DNA of 24,215 bases from a virus (IMGVR_UViG_3300030085_000679:1-24215), one strand, 5' to 3'; positions 3,738 to 10,061 are shown, counted from the stretch's first letter. Notes: generated from the sequence alone by a model not told the origin. Numbers and translations are program-made.

Positions 3738-3847
3738 TATAAGCCTCTCTGATTAACTAATTTGCCAACAACAGTTTATTACAATAAATACATTGTCATT
3801 CATATTTTCTCAAATACCAATAACATATATATTGCGAGAGGCTTATA
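3738..3847 (-). promoter_or_regulatory. Long-range inverted repeat filling the gap before the small membrane genes
   Basis: Perfect 12-base arms at 3738-3749 and 3836-3847 (on minus, TATAAGCCTCTC and GAGAGGCTTATA) enclose 86 AT-rich bases. On the minus strand two inner hairpins are possible: CAATA/TATTG with a 7-base loop, and ACAAT/ATTGT with a 6-base loop, giving a branched fold. The outer stem ends about 6 bases before the GGAGAG ribosome site of the gene starting at 3723, and begins directly after the stop of the gene ending at 3849. It may be a leader that controls translation, or an RNA-processing or stability element. The inner stems are AT-rich and could be chance; the outer arms are the solid evidence. 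Confidence 0.45.
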
Positions 3848-3848
3848 T

Positions 3849-4217
3849 TTATTTTATAGGTGGAACTGATCCTAGTCTACGTCTCTCGTTTTCTAGAATC
3901 TCTTTATTGTTCTTACCTTGATTTCTAATGATTGCTTTTAAGTAAGCAAATCCTTTGTTTCTTTCAAAAACCCGGCTCTCATAATAATCATTTATACAAT
4001 AATTTACAACACTATCTTCAAATTCTTTAATTCCAAACAAAAATTTTTCAAATTGATACCTATCATCTTGAGGCACATTTGTAATAATTTGTTTTGCTAT
4101 TTTATTAATGTTCATTATTGTTTTTTTCCCTCTAACAGCAAGAAGTTTTCTTATACTTTGGCTTATATTTTTTCTTCTGTTGGAAGTATCGTATCCACAA
4201 GCAGGGCATTTCTTCAT
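3849..4217 (-). CDS. Small protein with N-terminal CxxC motif, unknown function
   Basis: 122 residues from the ATG at 4217, which overlaps the stop of the upstream zinc-ribbon gene as ATGA. It begins MKKCPACGYD, half of a zinc ribbon with no obvious second cysteine pair (a lone Cys lies near the middle), and continues as a charged, largely helical protein ending RRRLGSVPPIK. The segment KGFAYLKAIIRNQGKN loosely resembles the tail of DnaD-like primosome domains, which would fit a gene close to a helicase, but the likeness is weak and I do not call it. Longer in-frame starts at 4247 and 4238 would overlap the upstream gene further. The ribosome site is weak, so coupling is likely. Confidence 0.68.
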   Translation of the reverse strand: MKKCPACGYDTSNRRKNISQSIRKLLAVRGKKTIMNINKIAKQIITNVPQDDRYQFEKFLFGIKEFEDSVVNYCINDYYESRVFERNKGFAYLKAIIRNQGKNNKEILENERRRLGSVPPIK

Positions 4218-4420
4218 TGTGTAATACTTTCTTTGCATTTTGGACAAGTCTCCTTTGGTTTTCCATATGAAGGAAAGTTCTCGTAATAATTAGTTCTCAT
4301 TACTTGCCTTTTCTTTTTACTATTTGGAGCTTCCCAACATACAGAACATATTAAACAATGTTTTACTCGTTGATCTGCTAATCTAGCATCAAATTCAAAT
4401 CTAGCTTTTTCACTCTTCAT
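4214..4420 (-). CDS. Small zinc-ribbon protein
   Basis: 68 residues with two cysteine knuckles: HCLICSVCWEAP (residues 21-32) and ETCPKCKES (57-65), separated by a basic stretch and NYYENFPSYGK. This pattern is typical of small four-cysteine zinc ribbons seen repeatedly in phage early regions. The reading frame stays open further upstream to 4492, but that part overlaps, in another frame, a better small gene (4410-4511). I therefore take the ATG at 4420, which overlaps the end of that gene by 11 bases. No strong ribosome site is present, consistent with coupling. Likely binds zinc; the partner (DNA, RNA or protein) is unknown. Confidence 0.7.
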   Translation of the reverse strand: MKSEKARFEFDARLADQRVKHCLICSVCWEAPNSKKKRQVMRTNYYENFPSYGKPKETCPKCKESITQ

Positions 4421-4511
4421 TGTCTTGCCAAATATTACAATGTTCTTTACATTCTGAGCAAATGTCTGTGTCATCATACACTTTTGCTCCACAACATTCT
4501 GATCTATTCAT
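4410..4511 (-). CDS. Tiny zinc-ribbon protein (33 residues)
   Basis: The ORF MNRSECCGAKVYDDTDIC continues with SECKEHCNIWQDNEE. The layout CCGAKV...DTDICSECKEHC is a recognisable minimal phage zinc ribbon that I have seen in many phage genomes: one knuckle at residues 6-7 and one at CSEC, plus a nearby His and Cys. It starts at the ATG at 4511, overlapping the TAG of the upstream gene by 8 bases, and ends with TGA at 4410, 11 bases inside the next gene. It sits inside a longer open frame of the next gene, but the cysteine pattern and tidy end-to-end overlaps favour this frame. Function unknown. Confidence 0.66.
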   Translation of the reverse strand: MNRSECCGAKVYDDTDICSECKEHCNIWQDNEE

Positions 4512-4782
4512 TTTTTATTCTCACTTCAGTTTGTCCAGCCCACCTTACTGTTTTAAACCCAGCATCACTTGAATTTTTAGCACATACAATAGTAGCTGCT
4601 TCTGTATGATCTAAAACAATTGCTAGGTTGTCTGATTCAGTTTCTACAAGTTGGCCAGGTTCAACATCTTTAATATATACAAAACCTTTTTGTGGTTTCC
4701 ACTCAGGTTTATCAATCATCGCAGACTTCGCAATGTCTTGAATTTTCTTGAGTTTCTTTTTCCATTTGGTTTCTGGTTTCAT
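4504..4782 (-). CDS. Small basic protein of unknown function
   Basis: 92 residues. The N-terminal third is very lysine-rich (KWKKKLKKIQDIAKSAM), followed by a compact beta-rich part with DVEPGQLVETESDNLAIVLDH and a final KTVRWAGQTEVRIKNE. The ATG at 4782 is preceded by AAGGAGAGAAAGACA, a strong ribosome site, although it lies 71 bases inside the end of the upstream gene. The stop overlaps the tiny zinc-ribbon gene. The C-terminal half looks like a small beta-barrel, but I recognise no family. Confidence 0.68.
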   Translation of the reverse strand: MKPETKWKKKLKKIQDIAKSAMIDKPEWKPQKGFVYIKDVEPGQLVETESDNLAIVLDHTEAATIVCAKNSSDAGFKTVRWAGQTEVRIKNE

Positions 4783-4960
4783 TGTCTTTCTCTCCTTGTA
4801 TTATATCTGTTCTTATCTGAATGAAATCTTGTTTTATCTTATGTGTAAACATACTATCTGCATCAAAATGTTCAGCTGCTTCTTCGGTAAATTGCAAAGC
4901 ATTAATTACCATTTCTATTTCAGATTTAGTTAATTTAATTACTGCACTTGATTCTTCCAT
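4712..4960 (-). CDS. Small acidic helical protein with C-terminal HCxxC, unknown function
   Basis: 82 residues from the ATG at 4960, which follows AGGAGACGAA. The N-terminal half is an amphipathic helical region (KLTKSEIEMVINALQFTEEA) resembling small phage regulatory or accessory proteins; the end is hydrophilic and finishes RHCEVCDD. The last 24 codons overlap the next gene in another frame by 71 bases, unusually long for this genome. The real stop could be different if a frameshift is present. An upstream in-frame ATG at 5044 would extend through a hairpin region and lacks support. No family recognised. Confidence 0.6.
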   Translation of the reverse strand: MEESSAVIKLTKSEIEMVINALQFTEEAAEHFDADSMFTHKIKQDFIQIRTDIIQGEKDNETRNQMEKETQENSRHCEVCDD

Positions 4961-4977
4961 TTCGTCTCCTATAAAAT

Positions 4978-5037
4978 GAGGGTGATGCCGAGAGAGAGAC
5001 GAGTTCGGAGAGTATGGGTTGAATACACACCACCCTC
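4978..5037 (-). promoter_or_regulatory. GC-rich branched stem in the leader of the gene starting at 4960
   Basis: On the minus strand GAGGGTGGTG pairs with CATCACCCTC to give 10 pairs with one G-U; read on the plus strand, the same position is an A-C mismatch. Inside lie GTAT/ATAC with a 7-base loop and CCGA/TCGG with a 13-base loop, a three-way junction. The block is much more GC-rich than its surroundings. It sits between the SSB-like gene (ends 5099) and the AGGAG site of the gene starting at 4960. It could act as an attenuator, a partial terminator (ATTTTA follows the stem) or a translational control leader. The bases 5038-5098 hold no further gene. Confidence 0.48.
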
Positions 5038-5098
5038 GCCTCAAAATTACTTAGAATATATAAATTCTTTCAAGTAAAATCTCTCAACGTTTTGTTAT

Positions 5099-5731
5099 TT
5101 AGAAAGGTACATCATCATCCATCTCATCTTGAGATAGTTTTTCTCCACCTTTCCACAATGTAACTTCTTTTGCTTTCAATACAAACTTACGTTCTTGTTG
5201 ATCTACAGGTAGATCTTTTGTATCTCTTGTAACATAAGAATGTGTTTCTAGTTTAATATTAACAGGAAGTCCTATAACATCTTCTTCTTCCACAAGAACA
5301 AGTTTCTTTTTGCCATCATCTTCTTCAAGTTCTATATTAAGACCTTCAAGCAATTTAAAGTATCTACTATTTTTGTTAGCAGATTCTGATGTAGTAAACA
5401 CAAAGAAACCATTGTCGTAGTATTTTCTACCCGGCAGATGTGTGCAATTAGTATGCATTTCATTACCATCTTTATCAACAAGAGGTATTTTATTACCATT
5501 CACATCTTTTCTATGCTTATACCCATCCATCTCATACAGAGGTTGAGTAAGATCAGCAGCTTCATCTGCAATTGTGTAAGACATATTAACAATAATAGCT
5601 TCGCCCGCTCTAGTCATCACTTCTTTAGTATCAAGACTTGATATGTGAGCAGGATATGTACCTTCTTCAACAGGTACAAATGCATCTTGTTTTTTACTGT
5701 CAAACAATACACCTTCTAGTTCTCTTGCCAT
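5099..5731 (-). CDS. Single-stranded DNA-binding-like protein with SSB-type acidic tip
   Basis: 210 residues. The body is beta-rich (VEEGTYPAHISSLDTKE, then GEAIIVNMSYTI, FKLLEG, and KFVLKAKEVTLW), resembling DUF669-type phage ssDNA-binding proteins more than classical SSB. The C-terminus is acidic and ends MDDDVPF, very close to the DDDIPF tip by which bacterial SSBs recruit repair and replication enzymes. It probably coats ssDNA during replication and recombination and docks partner proteins. The ATG at 5731 follows AATAAGGAGAATAAA. It lies in the same run as the annealing protein and the Cas4-like nuclease, which fits. The fold is inferred; the tail is seen directly. Confidence 0.72.
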   Translation of the reverse strand: MARELEGVLFDSKKQDAFVPVEEGTYPAHISSLDTKEVMTRAGEAIIVNMSYTIADEAADLTQPLYEMDGYKHRKDVNGNKIPLVDKDGNEMHTNCTHLPGRKYYDNGFFVFTTSESANKNSRYFKLLEGLNIELEEDDGKKKLVLVEEEDVIGLPVNIKLETHSYVTRDTKDLPVDQQERKFVLKAKEVTLWKGGEKLSQDEMDDDVPF

Positions 5732-5741
5732 TTTATTCTCC

Positions 5742-6011
5742 TTATTTGTTAGTTGTAGTTGTGTATTTAGTTAATAGTTTATCGTATTCAGTTTGGAACT
5801 TTATCATTTCTTTTGATGGTTCTAGTCCTTTGCCTCCACGAAAGTAGAGGCTTGGAATTACATAAGTACCATTAGCAGTTTTGATATATCTTTTTACTGA
5901 TGTTCTTTTAGTTGATATAGAATTACTATTTTTCAACTCTTTTACAGCAGAAGCTGATAGCTTACCGCTTTCTTTTAGTCTGTCAATATCAGACTGTTTT
6001 ACTTTTCCCAT
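5742..6011 (-). CDS. Small protein of unknown function
   Basis: 89 residues beginning MGKVKQSDIDRLKESGKLSA. The first half is helical and charged, then a basic segment (STKRTSVKRYIK) leads to TANGTYVIPSLYFRGGKG and a helical tail ending TTTTNK. The ATG at 6011 follows AAGGAGACC at good spacing, and the gene overlaps its upstream neighbour by 13 bases. It is bracketed by the annealing protein and the SSB-like protein, so a recombination accessory role is possible, but no motif supports that. Confidence 0.68.
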   Translation of the reverse strand: MGKVKQSDIDRLKESGKLSASAVKELKNSNSISTKRTSVKRYIKTANGTYVIPSLYFRGGKGLEPSKEMIKFQTEYDKLLTKYTTTTNK

Positions 6012-6295
6012 TGATGGTCTCCTTTTATTTTATTTTGTATATGTACATCTACTTGAGATTCTAGTTCTTCTGGCAATGGATGTGGATCTTCTTGCATACT
6101 GAATGTATGAAACGAAGGATTTACCACAAGTGTTTTACCAGTTTGTAGTGTTTTGAATGTCATCATTGGTTTTCCGTTGAATTGCTTTCTACCAGTAAAT
6201 ATCATCTGATTGAACTCACGCCCATCAGAAGTACCCACAGCATACACTTCACCTTCTACCAATAAATAATCATTATTTTGATGTATCCTTTTCAT
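5999..6295 (-). CDS. Small beta-rich protein of unknown function
   Basis: 98 residues, starting MKRIHQNNDYLLVEGEVYAV and continuing with several short strands (MIFTGRKQF, MMTFKTLQTGKTLVVNP), then an acidic, proline-containing tail. The ATG at 6295 lies 23 bases inside the end of the annealing-protein gene, with GAGAGAG about 9 bases upstream. It looks like a small beta-barrel, but no family is recognised. Its position directly behind the annealing protein suggests co-expression. Confidence 0.66.
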   Translation of the reverse strand: MKRIHQNNDYLLVEGEVYAVGTSDGREFNQMIFTGRKQFNGKPMMTFKTLQTGKTLVVNPSFHTFSMQEDPHPLPEELESQVDVHIQNKIKGDHQWEK

Positions 6296-6911
6296 TTAAT
6301 TTATCTCTCTCTCTTTTTAATTTAGACAACGAACCATTGTAGTTCGATGTATTTAGTTTCTGGTCTTTGATTAGTTTATGTATTTGTTCCATTTTTGATT
6401 CACTTATATCAGATGCTACTACAAGAATTTCATTCTTCATTTCATCTGACAATTCAAGATCTTCAATCTGATTTCTGTATACGTCATCTGCAATATTCAA
6501 ATACATATTCATTGCTTTTTTCATACAATCTGTATTAGCAGCTTTGATGTCGTTACCTATATCTACGAAATCTCCAGTGCCTCTCTTAGTCTGTATTCTA
6601 TGAGCTGCTACCATATCTCCAGTTCGCCATATACCTTCATCATACCACTTCAATCTACCATGTACTACATAGGCAGCACTACCTAAGTTTTCTGTCTTTA
6701 CAATTTCCCAAGACCAGCCTGCATATTCTTTATCTGCAATTTCTCTCATGTATCCAATCTCTACATAATCCTGTCCTTGTCTTTGTTTGACAAAAGGAGC
6801 AGGAGTAGGAGTAAAAGATACTTTCTTGTGTTTTTGTGTGATTGCTTTTCTTATTTCGTTTGTTGTTGATAACGTAGATTCATCTACTATTATCTGCGTG
6901 TTATTACTCAT
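6273..6911 (-). CDS. Rad52-like single-strand annealing protein
   Basis: 212 residues. Residues 48-70 (DYVEIGYMREIADKEYAGWS) match the start of the Rad52/Sak-type core, followed by the strand VVHGRLKWYDEGIWRTG (82-98) and the family's helical signature DIKAANTDCMKKAMNMYLNI (121-140), which corresponds to the usual K-A..TDALKRA pattern. The C-terminal third is charged and helical. Such proteins anneal complementary single strands during phage recombination, often with an exonuclease; here the Cas4-like nuclease is encoded immediately upstream. The ATG at 6911 follows AAGGATAACA. The family call is from motif memory and is moderately strong; Erf and RedB families fit less well. Confidence 0.72.
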   Translation of the reverse strand: MSNNTQIIVDESTLSTTNEIRKAITQKHKKVSFTPTPAPFVKQRQGQDYVEIGYMREIADKEYAGWSWEIVKTENLGSAAYVVHGRLKWYDEGIWRTGDMVAAHRIQTKRGTGDFVDIGNDIKAANTDCMKKAMNMYLNIADDVYRNQIEDLELSDEMKNEILVVASDISESKMEQIHKLIKDQKLNTSNYNGSLSKLKRERDKLNEKDTSK

Positions 6912-6924
6912 TGTTATCCTTTGT

Positions 6925-7656
6925 TTATTTTATTGGTGTTGGACAGACATCATTATAACTACAATATCTACATTCCCAATCTTCAAAAGGTGTTCCATAT
7001 CCTATGCTTGGTTCTAATTCGTCAGCAAGATGAAACTCTTCTCCAAACTCATCAAGTATATCATTCGTATCTTCCCAATATTCTTTTGCTTCTTTAATAT
7101 AAGAACTATCAACAAGTTGTTCTCTCATCATAGAAGTATTTTTATTGTACCAGATAAGAAAAAGATTTACCTTTTCTATTTTTGGATTTTGCGATATTGC
7201 AAGACCATAAGTACCCAACTGTAACTTATAGTTTCTGTCTGTTGTTTTGACTCGGTTGTCTTTCCGACCAAACTTTGTTGTCCATTTGTAAGCTGCAACA
7301 GTTTTGTAATCATATATATCAAATACATTATGTCTTCTTTCACCTAGATCAAATGTTCCTACAACATTTAGTTCAGGTATAGATACTTTTTCTTCAATAT
7401 ATATATCTTTCTGAGGATTGTCATCTTGTATTTTAGACATTGCTCTTTCTAAGTCTTCATGTACAATTGTACCAAGACGTAAGAGCCTTAACGATTTATC
7501 ATCAAGGCCCTTTGTCTCATATCCAAAGAAAGAATACATTTGTTTTCTGTAACAACTACCAGCAGAAGATGCATGAAACTCTTCATTTTCTTTTTCTGCT
7601 TGTCTATCATCATTAATGTCTGATAGATATTTATTATATGATTGTATTATATCCAT
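6925..7656 (-). CDS. Cas4-like PD-(D/E)XK nuclease with Fe-S cluster motif
   Basis: 243 residues. It has all expected marks: an N-terminal cysteine in SSAGSCYRKQMY (Cys35), GTIVHEDLE (His66), GTFDLG (Asp103), the D-x-K motif IYDYKT (Asp116, Lys118), the QLGTY motif (Gln146), and a C-terminal cluster WECRYCSYNDVCPTP (Cys229, Cys232, Cys238). With Cys35 these would hold a 4Fe-4S cluster as in Cas4 and AddB. Phage members act as DNA exonucleases; here it is paired with an annealing protein, giving a Red-like module. No cas1 or cas2 is present, so no CRISPR role is implied. The ATG at 7656 follows AAGGAGAGACT. Confidence 0.88.
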   Translation of the reverse strand: MDIIQSYNKYLSDINDDRQAEKENEEFHASSAGSCYRKQMYSFFGYETKGLDDKSLRLLRLGTIVHEDLERAMSKIQDDNPQKDIYIEEKVSIPELNVVGTFDLGERRHNVFDIYDYKTVAAYKWTTKFGRKDNRVKTTDRNYKLQLGTYGLAISQNPKIEKVNLFLIWYNKNTSMMREQLVDSSYIKEAKEYWEDTNDILDEFGEEFHLADELEPSIGYGTPFEDWECRYCSYNDVCPTPIK

Positions 7657-7689
7657 AGTCTCTCCTTATGTACTCTAAATTTAACAATA

Positions 7690-8034
7690 TTAACATTTAC
7701 TATCAACAGTTGAGTTCAAATATAGTTTGAATTTGCTTAAATGTTCTGCACTTCTTTTATTTCCACCAATGTTGAATCTCAATGGTTTATCTAACATCCA
7801 CAAACCTTTTGGTGTAAAAGGATTACGTTTGTCATACAATGTAGTCCATTTCCAATCATACAATGTGAAAACTATATTGTCATTAATAAATGCATATTCT
7901 CCAGATATTTTGTAATCATCTCCCATATTTGGTTTACCAAATGTCTTAACAACATTTTTTGGTATTAGATCTATTTCACCTTGATAAAAAGTTCCACATA
8001 TTATATTCTGATCATCTGATAGAAAAAATTCCAT
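7690..8034 (-). CDS. Conserved phage protein of unknown function
   Basis: 114 residues from the ATG at 8034 (MEFFLSDDQNIICGTF), preceded by CAGGAGTTATA; the ATG shares a base with the TAA of the upstream gene (TAATG). The core, VVKTFGKPNMGDDYKISGEY followed by VFTLYDWKWTTLYD and a later RFNIGGNKRSAEHL, resembles a recurrent small protein I associate with the replication regions of many phages. Its function is not known to me. An in-frame start at 8064 would overlap the winged-helix gene and has no better ribosome site. Confidence 0.68.
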   Translation of the reverse strand: MEFFLSDDQNIICGTFYQGEIDLIPKNVVKTFGKPNMGDDYKISGEYAFINDNIVFTLYDWKWTTLYDKRNPFTPKGLWMLDKPLRFNIGGNKRSAEHLSKFKLYLNSTVDSKC

Positions 8035-8561
8035 TATAACTCCTGTTCTTTTATTATATACCAATACTTTCTGCCAGCGTCATCATCCCATACTGACATT
8101 TCTTTTAGTATATTAAGTGTGTTGTTTGATACTCTTGCTATATCTCCTTTTGCTATAGGTTCAAAGTAACCTACAACCAGAGATCTTTTAAACTCATGTG
8201 TTCTAAATTGTATATCTTTGTATCCATACAAGGTTAGCAATAGTTTTATCTTACCTTCCGCATCTTTCTGCATACCATCTATTTCATCAACAGGAACAAT
8301 AGCATTAACTGTTCTTTTTGAATAAGGACATTTCTTTTTGTCAAATGTAGTTAGTTTACCATCTTTCTTGAGATCGTTCACTCTACCACTTACTGCATTG
8401 ATTTCATATTCTGTTATAGCACATATCTCACGAAGAGACATACCTTTGCTATGTATATTATAATGCTCTGTTACAACTTTCATAATATTGTGTTTTTGTG
8501 TATAAGATACACCTTCTTCATTTATTTCTTTGTATGCTTGTTTACTTGTTTGTGTTACCAT
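8034..8561 (-). CDS. Winged-helix-like DNA-binding protein
   Basis: 175 residues. Residues 1-75 look like an N-terminal winged helix: HNIMKVVTEHYNIHSKGMSL is a helix before the recognition part, and REICAITEYEINAVSGRVND followed by LKKDGKL gives the helix-turn-helix and wing. KKCPYSKRTVNAIVPV then closes the domain. The remaining 90 residues are a mixed fold without a known motif (YGYKDIQFRTHEF, then a Trp-rich end). It probably binds DNA, either as a transcriptional regulator of the early block or as a replication initiator or accessory. The ATG at 8561 follows AAAAAGGAGAAGTAAC. The HTH reading is by pattern only. Confidence 0.68.
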   Translation of the reverse strand: MVTQTSKQAYKEINEEGVSYTQKHNIMKVVTEHYNIHSKGMSLREICAITEYEINAVSGRVNDLKKDGKLTTFDKKKCPYSKRTVNAIVPVDEIDGMQKDAEGKIKLLLTLYGYKDIQFRTHEFKRSLVVGYFEPIAKGDIARVSNNTLNILKEMSVWDDDAGRKYWYIIKEQEL

Positions 8562-8562
8562 G

Positions 8563-8757
8563 TTACTTCTCCTTTTTGTTTAGTTCATCAAACCCAAGAG
8601 CAAACTTAAGAGATTCTATTCTGCCTGTGCATACGTCTATAAGTGTTTCGTTTGCTTCCTCAAATTTGACATTTTGACTTCTTATAAGATATTCTTTCAT
8701 GCTCAATTCTTTTTCTAATGCAATTATTAGTTCATCTTTTGTTTTTACTTTTAACAT
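8563..8757 (-). CDS. Short helical (coiled-coil-like) protein
   Basis: 64 residues, almost entirely charged helix (MLKVKTKDELIIALEKELSM, later GRIESLKFALGFDELNKKEK). The ATG at 8757 has AAAGGATAAACA before it, and the stop lies one base from the next gene's start. It is the first gene after the structured region 8787-9067. No family recognised. Confidence 0.62.
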   Translation of the reverse strand: MLKVKTKDELIIALEKELSMKEYLIRSQNVKFEEANETLIDVCTGRIESLKFALGFDELNKKEK

Positions 8758-8786
8758 TGTTTATCCTTTTGTTTAGTTTAAAATTT

Positions 8787-8868
8787 TTGCCTACATCCGA
8801 CTCCAACGGATCGTAACGGAGCCACAGTTGAATGGAGCAAATAAACAACTGTTGCGTTAGATAGGCAA
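8787..8868 (-). ncRNA. Compact three-way-junction RNA element with tRNA-like T arm
   Basis: On the minus strand, outer stem TTGCCTAT/GTAGGCAA (7 Watson-Crick pairs plus one G-U). One arm is TAACG/CGTTA followed by ACAGTTG/CAACTGT with a 15-base loop. A second arm is ATCCG/CGGAT with a 7-base loop, TTGGAGT, abutting the 3' side of the outer stem with no gap. Junction linkers are only 1, 2 and 0 bases. The second arm imitates a tRNA T arm: 5 pairs, 7-base loop, G53-C61, T54, T55, R57, A58 and Y60 in place, with C56 replaced by G. There is no normal anticodon arm and no encoded CCA, so it is not a standard tRNA. It lies 30 bases before the gene starting at 8757. Confidence 0.5.
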
Positions 8869-8884
8869 TGGTATAGTTTGTATT

Positions 8885-8965
8885 CATCACTCTATACTTT
8901 TCACTCGTTAAACGACGTTACTAAGAAATAGGTGTCAACTATTAGCATCACTATACACTTCACAC
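8885..8965. repeat. Imperfect direct repeat in the structured intergenic region
   Basis: CATCACTCTATACTTTTCAC at 8885-8904 recurs as CATCACTATACACTTCACAC at 8946-8965, 61 bases apart. Short inverted repeats also occur here (GTATAG 8871/CTATAC 8892; CTATTAG 8939/CTAATAG 8965). On the minus strand TTGACA is present (8938-8933), but no convincing -10 box follows at 16-18 bases. The repeats could be operator or promoter sites between two RNA elements. No gene is supported in 8869-8989. Confidence 0.35.
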
Positions 8966-8989
8966 TAATAGCTGTTACTAGTAATAATT

Positions 8990-9067
8990 TAGGCACTGCT
9001 TTCATAGACGATGCGGAGTCTACTTTTTTACCACATTGTAGTTGTGAGTGGAAGGGAACAGTGCCTA
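8990..9067 (-). ncRNA. Second branched stem element upstream of 8787-8868
   Basis: The outer arms TAGGCACTG (8990-8998) and CAGTGCCTA (9059-9067) are perfect. On the minus strand the stem extends by one G-U and one A-T pair to 11 pairs, whereas the first extension is a C-A mismatch on the plus strand. Inside are TAGAC/GTCTA with an 8-base loop (9005-9022) and CCAC/GTGG or CACA/TGTG (9031-9051). The shape resembles the element at 8787-8868, though the sequence differs. It lies in the 354-base gap 8758-9111, which otherwise holds no supported gene. It could be an RNA element or a bidirectional terminator, since on plus TAAAATTTTTG follows the stem. Confidence 0.42.
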
Positions 9068-9111
9068 TAAAATTTTTGAGCAGTTTTACAACTTACTCAG
9101 GTTCAACCACA

Positions 9112-9315
9112 TCAATCAATAGGCACAATAGTACAAGCTTGATGCTTACTAAGCCAATCAATTGTAAACTTAATGATACGAATAAAAGAAAGCCGTTGAT
9201 CTGTTTTCACAGAACCTTTCTTTGTTCTATACCAAAAAGAATTGTTGTCTCTAGCAACTACTAAATAGTCACCAGACTTAGCAACAAATGTGATTGATGA
9301 TTTGTGATTCTTCAT
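9112..9315 (-). CDS. Small basic protein of unknown function
   Basis: 67 residues beginning MKNHKSSITFVAKSGDYLVV, with two to three predicted strands, a basic middle (WYRTKKGSVKTDQRL) and a helical end with one cysteine. The start at 9315 is chosen because CCTAAGGAGGTTCTT, a near-perfect ribosome site, sits right before it; the open frame extends to 9390, but that part would run through a hairpin. The site is partly enclosed by that hairpin (9325-9379), so translation may be controlled. No family recognised. Confidence 0.62.
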   Translation of the reverse strand: MKNHKSSITFVAKSGDYLVVARDNNSFWYRTKKGSVKTDQRLSFIRIIKFTIDWLSKHQACTIVPID

Positions 9316-9324
9316 AAGAACCTC

Positions 9325-9379
9325 CTTAGGTTGGTTAGCAAAATATTGATCTTTTTTATGCTTACTAACTATTCCTAAG
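9325..9379 (-). promoter_or_regulatory. Hairpin covering part of the ribosome site of the gene at 9315
   Basis: On the minus strand CTTAGG pairs with CCTAAG, then after a small internal loop GTTAGTAAG pairs with TTTGCTAAC (9 pairs including two G-U) around an A-rich loop. The 3' outer arm CCTAAG contains the AAG of the ribosome site AAGGAGG, so folding would hide part of the site. Both wobble pairs become mismatches when read on the plus strand. A TATAAA just upstream on the minus strand (about 9384-9389) could be a promoter -10 element that starts the transcript at the hairpin, but no -35 is clear. Confidence 0.45.
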
Positions 9380-9468
9380 TTTATACCCAAGTTATTCTAG
9401 AATGTAGTATATATAGAGGAAATATCTACATACCTTACATTTATACGCCTAACACGAGCAGTTGCGTA

Positions 9469-9829: not shown

Positions 9830-10061
9830 TTGTCACCTCCTTTATATTAGTTCAATAATTATTATTATAATATAAAATAGAAAATAACGAAAATTGTATT
9901 TTGGGAATCTCCCCGATAGGGGGTACATAGTATAAATAAGACTCTCTATCAAAATCATACAATTTTTCTACTAAATAACTGGGGTAACTACTTGTATTAA
10001 GTTGTATTATAGTTTAAATTAATGGGTGGTTGGGTCGGGATAAATAAAAGGTGTAATTAAA
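9830..10061. promoter_or_regulatory. Divergent intergenic control region
   Basis: 232 bases between the leftward and rightward blocks, with no gene. It contains an AT-rich stretch with TATAAT-like sequences toward the leftward gene. A hairpin CCCC-GATA-GGGG (9911-9922) overlaps an alternative stem GGGA/TCCC (9903-9913), so the two exclude each other. The direct repeat TTGTATTA occurs at 9992-9999 and 10002-10009, exactly 10 bases apart, just before a TATTAT box. Promoters for both blocks are expected here, but I find no clean -35/-10 pair, so the phage may use an activator or its own sigma or RNA polymerase. Confidence 0.5.

Follow-up and report, generated by a model that had tools for sequence, protein, structure and literature searches.

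The leftward gene block of a virus from an uncultivated group contains at least four separate conserved folded RNA elements, unrelated to each other. These elements, named S1 to S4 (Table 1), are conserved minus-strand RNA folds, and not chance repeats or DNA palindromes; a fifth one, S5, is a plausible conserved RNA fold. According to the reading that we favour, to which a probability of about 0.45 is assigned, S1 to S4 are selected minus-strand folds, S1, S2 and S5 would act in cis, and S3 and S4 would be non-coding RNAs embedded in the operon, a role like that of the put RNA of phage HK022 being the likeliest. Few phage RNAs do their work as RNA, and each of them, such as put, pRNA and the gene 32 pseudoknot, has taught something basic. 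A single uncultivated group now adds at least four conserved families that Rfam lacks; in two of them (S3 and S4) core or loops stay the same although the terminases share only about 30% identity. Constant loops on freely varying stems point to a conserved binding partner.

Genome setting and comparison set

The window, i.e. the whole stretch of DNA analyzed (24,215 nucleotides, positions 1-24215), is part of a virus record of 41,062 bases. Terminase, portal and major head protein are encoded by rightward genes in its right part; a DnaB-type helicase, an adenine methyltransferase, a DUF932 protein, a PD-(D/E)XK nuclease and an SSB-like protein by leftward genes in its left part. Among named phages no close match was found to the DNA, the capsid, the nuclease or the SSB-like protein. 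Relatives of the nuclease were found at 51 loci in IMG/VR, at 48-96% identity; these loci, together with the stretches retrieved by pattern scans for S4 (51), S3 (25) and S2 (44), make up the comparison set. Two of the 25 S3 pattern matches (L108 and L109) are GC-rich, and were judged to be due to chance.

The spacer between the divergent blocks (9830-10061) had 49 matches, the most of any intergenic stretch in the record, and features inverted arms around AATTGTAT...ATACAATT. A search of the record for a single-subunit RNA polymerase gene gave no match, but the control was also without a match.

Table 1. Folded elements and adjacent genes in the window, and modules in relatives (L, locus). 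MFE z-scores are relative to dinucleotide shuffles
Feature	Coordinates	Strand	z, minus	z, plus	Description
S1 leader	3738-3847	-	-6.45	-5.05	12 bp closing arms UAUAAGCCUCUC/GAGAGGCUUAUA
S2	4978-5042	-	-1.92	-0.70	two crossing helices, A GAGGCGAG/CUCGUCUC and B GAGGGUGGU/AUCACCCUC
S3	8787-8868	-	-2.57	-1.69	P1 UUGCCUAU/GUAGGCAA closes variable hairpin P2 and near-invariant core GUGGCUCCGUUACNAUCCGUUGGAGUCGGAUG
S4	8990-9068	-	-4.27	-3.82	three-way junction; P1 UAGGCACUGUU/AGCAGUGCCUA; P2 loop CACAACUACAA; P3 loop CUCCGCAU(C)
S5	9325-9379	-	-3.54	-2.30	two stacked helices, running into ribosome site CCUAAGGAGG
Gene directly after S2	4712-4960	-			start codon about 17 nt after S2 core
SSB-like gene	5099-5731	-			upstream of S2; acidic tail DDDVPF
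M1	L003:2852, L015:1873, L027:3814, L032:3689, L033:362				next genes differ
M3	L019:4364, L025:5858, L033:1174, L050:5885, L080 (minus, 3746), L128:4280
M4	L007:681, L008:5897, L017:3367, L032:5897				CUUCAUCUAGUACGRGGCC

Strand sense and conservation of the folds

The outer arms of all five elements were found where the first-pass annotation had placed them, and its proposal that the minus-strand RNA folds is borne out both by the z-scores, better for the minus than for the plus strand in five of five cases, and by covariation in relatives for S1 to S4. Minus-strand folds beat dinucleotide shuffles at all five spots. The low score of S2 is due to the fact that a nested fold cannot contain its two crossing helices. 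Homologous leaders back four of the five elements (S1-S4) by covariation, S5 having one diverged relative only, and it is mainly because of covariation that chance is excluded for S1 to S4. When the 41 kb record was scanned for MFE z-scores in fixed windows (24 shuffles), the five spots did not stand out, the windows being out of register with them; fold energy alone would therefore have missed them. A bias to G-U pairs in the minus sense, also claimed earlier, was found again: variable pairs of S2 include AU:15/GU:10, UA:13/UG:9 and GC:18/GU:8 in relatives, and S3 contains one invariant G-U pair and one U-G/U-A pair.

A ribosome site directly follows S1, S2, S3 and S5, none follows S4, exactly as previously described. 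The notion of one family of related leader RNAs had to be abandoned: each element has its own sequence, topology and distribution, and S3 and S4 are not bound to any downstream gene. The label of leader suits S1, S2 and S5, which end near a ribosome site. A part in RNA processing or in the timing of early genes, as suggested at first, is possible.

S1, S2 and S5

S1 carries a GUUGGC motif within its 3' half. Right after its end come AAGGAG and the first codons of a gene for a small protein (MFILDISEY...). In relatives the gene following S1 likewise encodes a small hydrophobic protein, and is kept in the 11 variants found. Place and GUUGGC motif are conserved, and the closing arms are rewritten completely between phages and still pair: in eight variants of the arms, own partners are 100% paired, partners swapped between phages 46%.

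S2 had been described as a stem closing on inner hairpins. Relatives show instead two crossing helices of 8-9 bp each, of which only the outer one, helix B, had been noticed. The consensus pairs GAGRYGAG with CUCRYCUC in helix A, and GAGGGYRGU with its complement in helix B. In an alignment of 27 distinct sequences, 99.5% of 372 cells at 14 pairs are paired, five pairs are changed on both sides, and both helices covary; pairing falls to 44-63% when partners are shifted. The two helices share one GAG triplet, able to pair with either CUC, an arrangement that would suit a switch or branch migration. S2 may be a pseudoknot or two competing, mutually exclusive hairpins. The covariance model found S2 once per sense strand.

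The gene upstream of S2 is called SSB-like because of its acidic tail ending in DVPF, present in 16 of 16 relatives, and of a weak resemblance of its fold to SSB proteins (best PDB E 8e-3). S2 lies behind this gene in every record where the gene was seen, at a distance of mostly 36-66 and up to 343 nt (148-343 nt in enlarged cases), and the next start codon is found 16-27 nt after S2, whichever gene follows. The family of the gene at 4712-4960 is replaced in some relatives by unrelated genes, encoding 140 aa in L005, 82 aa in L011, and 116 aa in L119, L120, L132 and L139. The 140 aa gene (L005:8698-9117) has entered precisely between the ribosome site of S2 and the gene that normally follows.

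Two S5 sequences are available in all, the inner arm being rewritten in the diverged relative (L025). A conserved element, CGATAACTTGGGTATAAAC (here GAATAACTTGGGTATAAAC), is located directly before S5 at 9376-9400, and before M1 in L003. It was considered as a promoter; it occurs at most once per sequence, and is therefore not a repeated promoter.

S3 and S4

Many different genes are found downstream of both S3 and S4. The S3 core holds the hairpin GGCUCC/GGAGUC, and an extra pairing AUCCG/CGGAU is possible. CUCC/GGAG and AUCCG/CGGAU might together make a pseudoknot, formed by bases which never vary and with one very short linking loop. In 16 distinct sequences 98.7% of pairs are formed and three covary, P1 showing one full compensatory change. 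The P2 hairpin is rewritten in L003 and L105; outside P1 and P2, S3 is nearly fixed over more than 40 positions, and its inner helix, invariant in all sequences, offers no covariation to judge it by. The same core resides in L105, L107 and L115, the terminases of which are 29-31% identical to the one encoded here, which speaks for strong constraint or else for transfer from phage to phage.

Unconstrained folding gave the three-way junction in most of 32 distinct S4 sequences. With the two motifs held unpaired, 34 distinct sequences comprise 25 P1, 18 P2 and 15 P3 variants: the loops CACAACUACAA and CUCCGCAUC hardly change while the stems vary freely. Invariance of the loops partly reflects selection of the sequences, since both motifs belonged to the search pattern. 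Members found by sequence similarity, not by pattern, share both motifs too, and only few of those detected by the covariance model vary at them (L020, L025 and L028). Hairpins of at least 5 pairs around CUCCGCA number 50, vs. about 0.6 for shuffled 7-mers. P1 covaries in relatives, and in distant members its helix is rewritten throughout, for instance as GGCGCGCAUG/CAUGUGCGCC. Own P1 arms are 100% paired and swapped ones 52%; as arms were chosen as paired, the contrast with swapped arms is the informative part. The covariance model matches the window with an E of 1e-17.

Nearly all of the whole records searched, up to 54 kb in length, have a single S4, apart from the copy in L002 divided by an insertion, and S4 extends to phages with terminases 31-34% identical, in the records of which the SSB-like gene was not found. 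Most S4 copies of the main group are located 0.8-2.2 kb past the strand switch, with up to 15 more ORFs still ahead. In a clade made up by L071, L075, L085 and L093 the block has run for 5.8 kb and is near its end when S4 is reached, and only 0.8 kb separates S4 from an ORF on the opposite strand, a position which argues against a strict start-of-operon role. An insertion splits S4 in L002 (3973-4119) and L103, the halves in L002 scoring separately in the covariance model; S4 may therefore be dispensable. Three pattern matches in 84,980 bacterial GTDB genomes do not bear the fold, and were judged to be due to chance.

Known families and comparable systems

No match reaching its gathering score was obtained by comparing the window to Rfam 15 at E up to 5, and 0 matches at gathering score in 125 kb of relatives. 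A search of open-licence papers retrieved comparators, but not S1-S5 themselves. S1 to S4 are filed as new families among structured phage RNAs, lying outside Rfam, GTDB and named phages in the searches made.

S2 resembles the pseudoknot of T4 gene 32, known from SSB autoregulation (PMC535899, PMC3014915), in being a pseudoknot-like RNA close to a ribosome site and beside the SSB gene of a phage. As in the gene 32 type, S2 has two crossing helices, A and B, which may form together or exclude each other. The T4 pseudoknot is located in the leader of gene 32 itself; unlike it, S2 lies behind the SSB-like gene and before the next one, not in the SSB leader.

HK022 put, an RNA with a length of about 70 nt and two stem-loops, belongs to early operons and acts on distant terminators, not on the gene that follows it; the phage genome has two copies, each early promoter being followed by one (PMC9378689). 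It contacts the polymerase via residues of both stems, and suppresses pausing and termination through the beta' zinc-binding domain (PMC9378689). S4 has two hairpins and a closing P1, hence a three-way junction. It differs from put in this closing stem, in being single copy in nearly all records searched, and in conserving apical loops. The motifs manA, wcaG and PhotoRC-II are structured RNAs of environmental DNA and cyanophages (PMC2864571). They are tied to metabolic or photosynthesis genes, and S1-S5 match no Rfam model. A riboswitch serving one downstream functional class does not fit S2, S3 and S4, the genes after them being changeable, and is ruled out for S3 and S4; S1 keeps its small-protein gene in the 11 variants found. 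The RNase III processing sites of T7 are structured intercistronic RNAs set before ribosome sites in a long operon. They are alike in placement, but cleavage by RNase III leaves the conserved loops and cores found here unexplained.

Possible functions

In the reading that we favour the block would be transcribed leftward, and its RNA would contain several unrelated, selected structures. S1, S2 and S5, set at ribosome sites, would act in cis on the next cistron, either controlling translation start, or marking and protecting a processed mRNA end. S2, with helices sharing GAG, one of which ends a few bases before the Shine-Dalgarno, may be a switch or a pseudoknot recognized by a protein. The stems of S3 and S4 would serve only to present the fixed core (S3) or loops (S4) to a partner that would be the same across distant phages. 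An operon-level role is the likeliest for both, because they are single copy, come after 1-3 ORFs of the leftward block in phages of the main group, and tolerate any next gene; judging from position and distribution, they possibly act as put does on the elongating polymerase, a small trans-acting RNA being next likeliest.

S3, S4 and similar modules might indeed be released from the operon transcript as small RNAs acting in trans, their invariant loops pairing with or binding a target in host or phage, for example as decoys for a host factor. Position regardless of gene, the single copy, the fixed S4 loops on free stems, the S3 core unchanged where terminases are 29-31% identical, and the combinations of modules changing among relatives all fit such RNAs, the main rival to the reading that we favour, and less likely than it; searches for a pairing partner in E. 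coli rRNA and inside the phages gave none. Complementarity of loops and core to rRNA of E. coli, taken as stand-in host, was best for a hand-picked piece of S3 (p 0.025; whole, 0.24), and is therefore not supported; extra matches to loop complements inside phages looked like the antisense of the elements or stray partial ones, with no clear target.

It is unlikely that all elements are mRNA processing or stability elements (RNase III or RNase E sites, 3' end caps) in which only stems matter, as in T7 early mRNA. Sites between cistrons, closing stems near ribosome sites, freely exchanged S1 arms, and S2 having a constant upstream and a changing downstream gene are all in line with processing, which leaves unexplained the conserved S4 loops, the near-invariant S3 core and the conservation of both crossing helices of S2. 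Inverted repeats working at the DNA level, as protein sites or ends of replication or mobile elements, would account for the perfect inverted repeats of the S1 arms, and for modules present or absent between relatives; they are very improbable given G-U pairs on one strand, one-sided G-C/G-U changes, minus folds better throughout, conserved loops on covarying stems, and the crossing of the S2 helices.

Further modules in relatives

Closing stems of at least 9 bp number 110 in the non-redundant intergenic DNA of the group, vs. 22-32 in shuffled DNA. Recurring modules outside the window are M1, M3, M4, M5 and M6, and their combinations differ between phages. It is conceivable, if distinctly unlikely, that S3, S4 and M1-M6 constitute an exchangeable kit of folded RNA cassettes, each with its own fixed loops and partner, which are shuffled between phages as accessory genes are and have the host as their target.

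M1 is a closed branched module of about 120 nt, AAAGAGCAAGGUCGC...GUCUUGCUCUUU, closely followed by a ribosome site and a start codon; DNA flanking it gave one short microvirus match, covering 24% of the query. M3 features GGUGGCNCG...GUUGUAACUAUCCA, also written GGUGGCNCGNGCAU...UUGUAACUAUCCA, and closing arms that differ between phages. M4 resides just upstream of the nuclease gene in L008 and L032, where the window has a short spacer only. Several modules follow in a row over 0.5-0.7 kb in L018 and L019. The L018 stretch (3920-4560) is free of large ORFs, and in it S4, S3 and several other closed stems come one after another; the 981 nt starting at 3920 fold with -218 kcal/mol.
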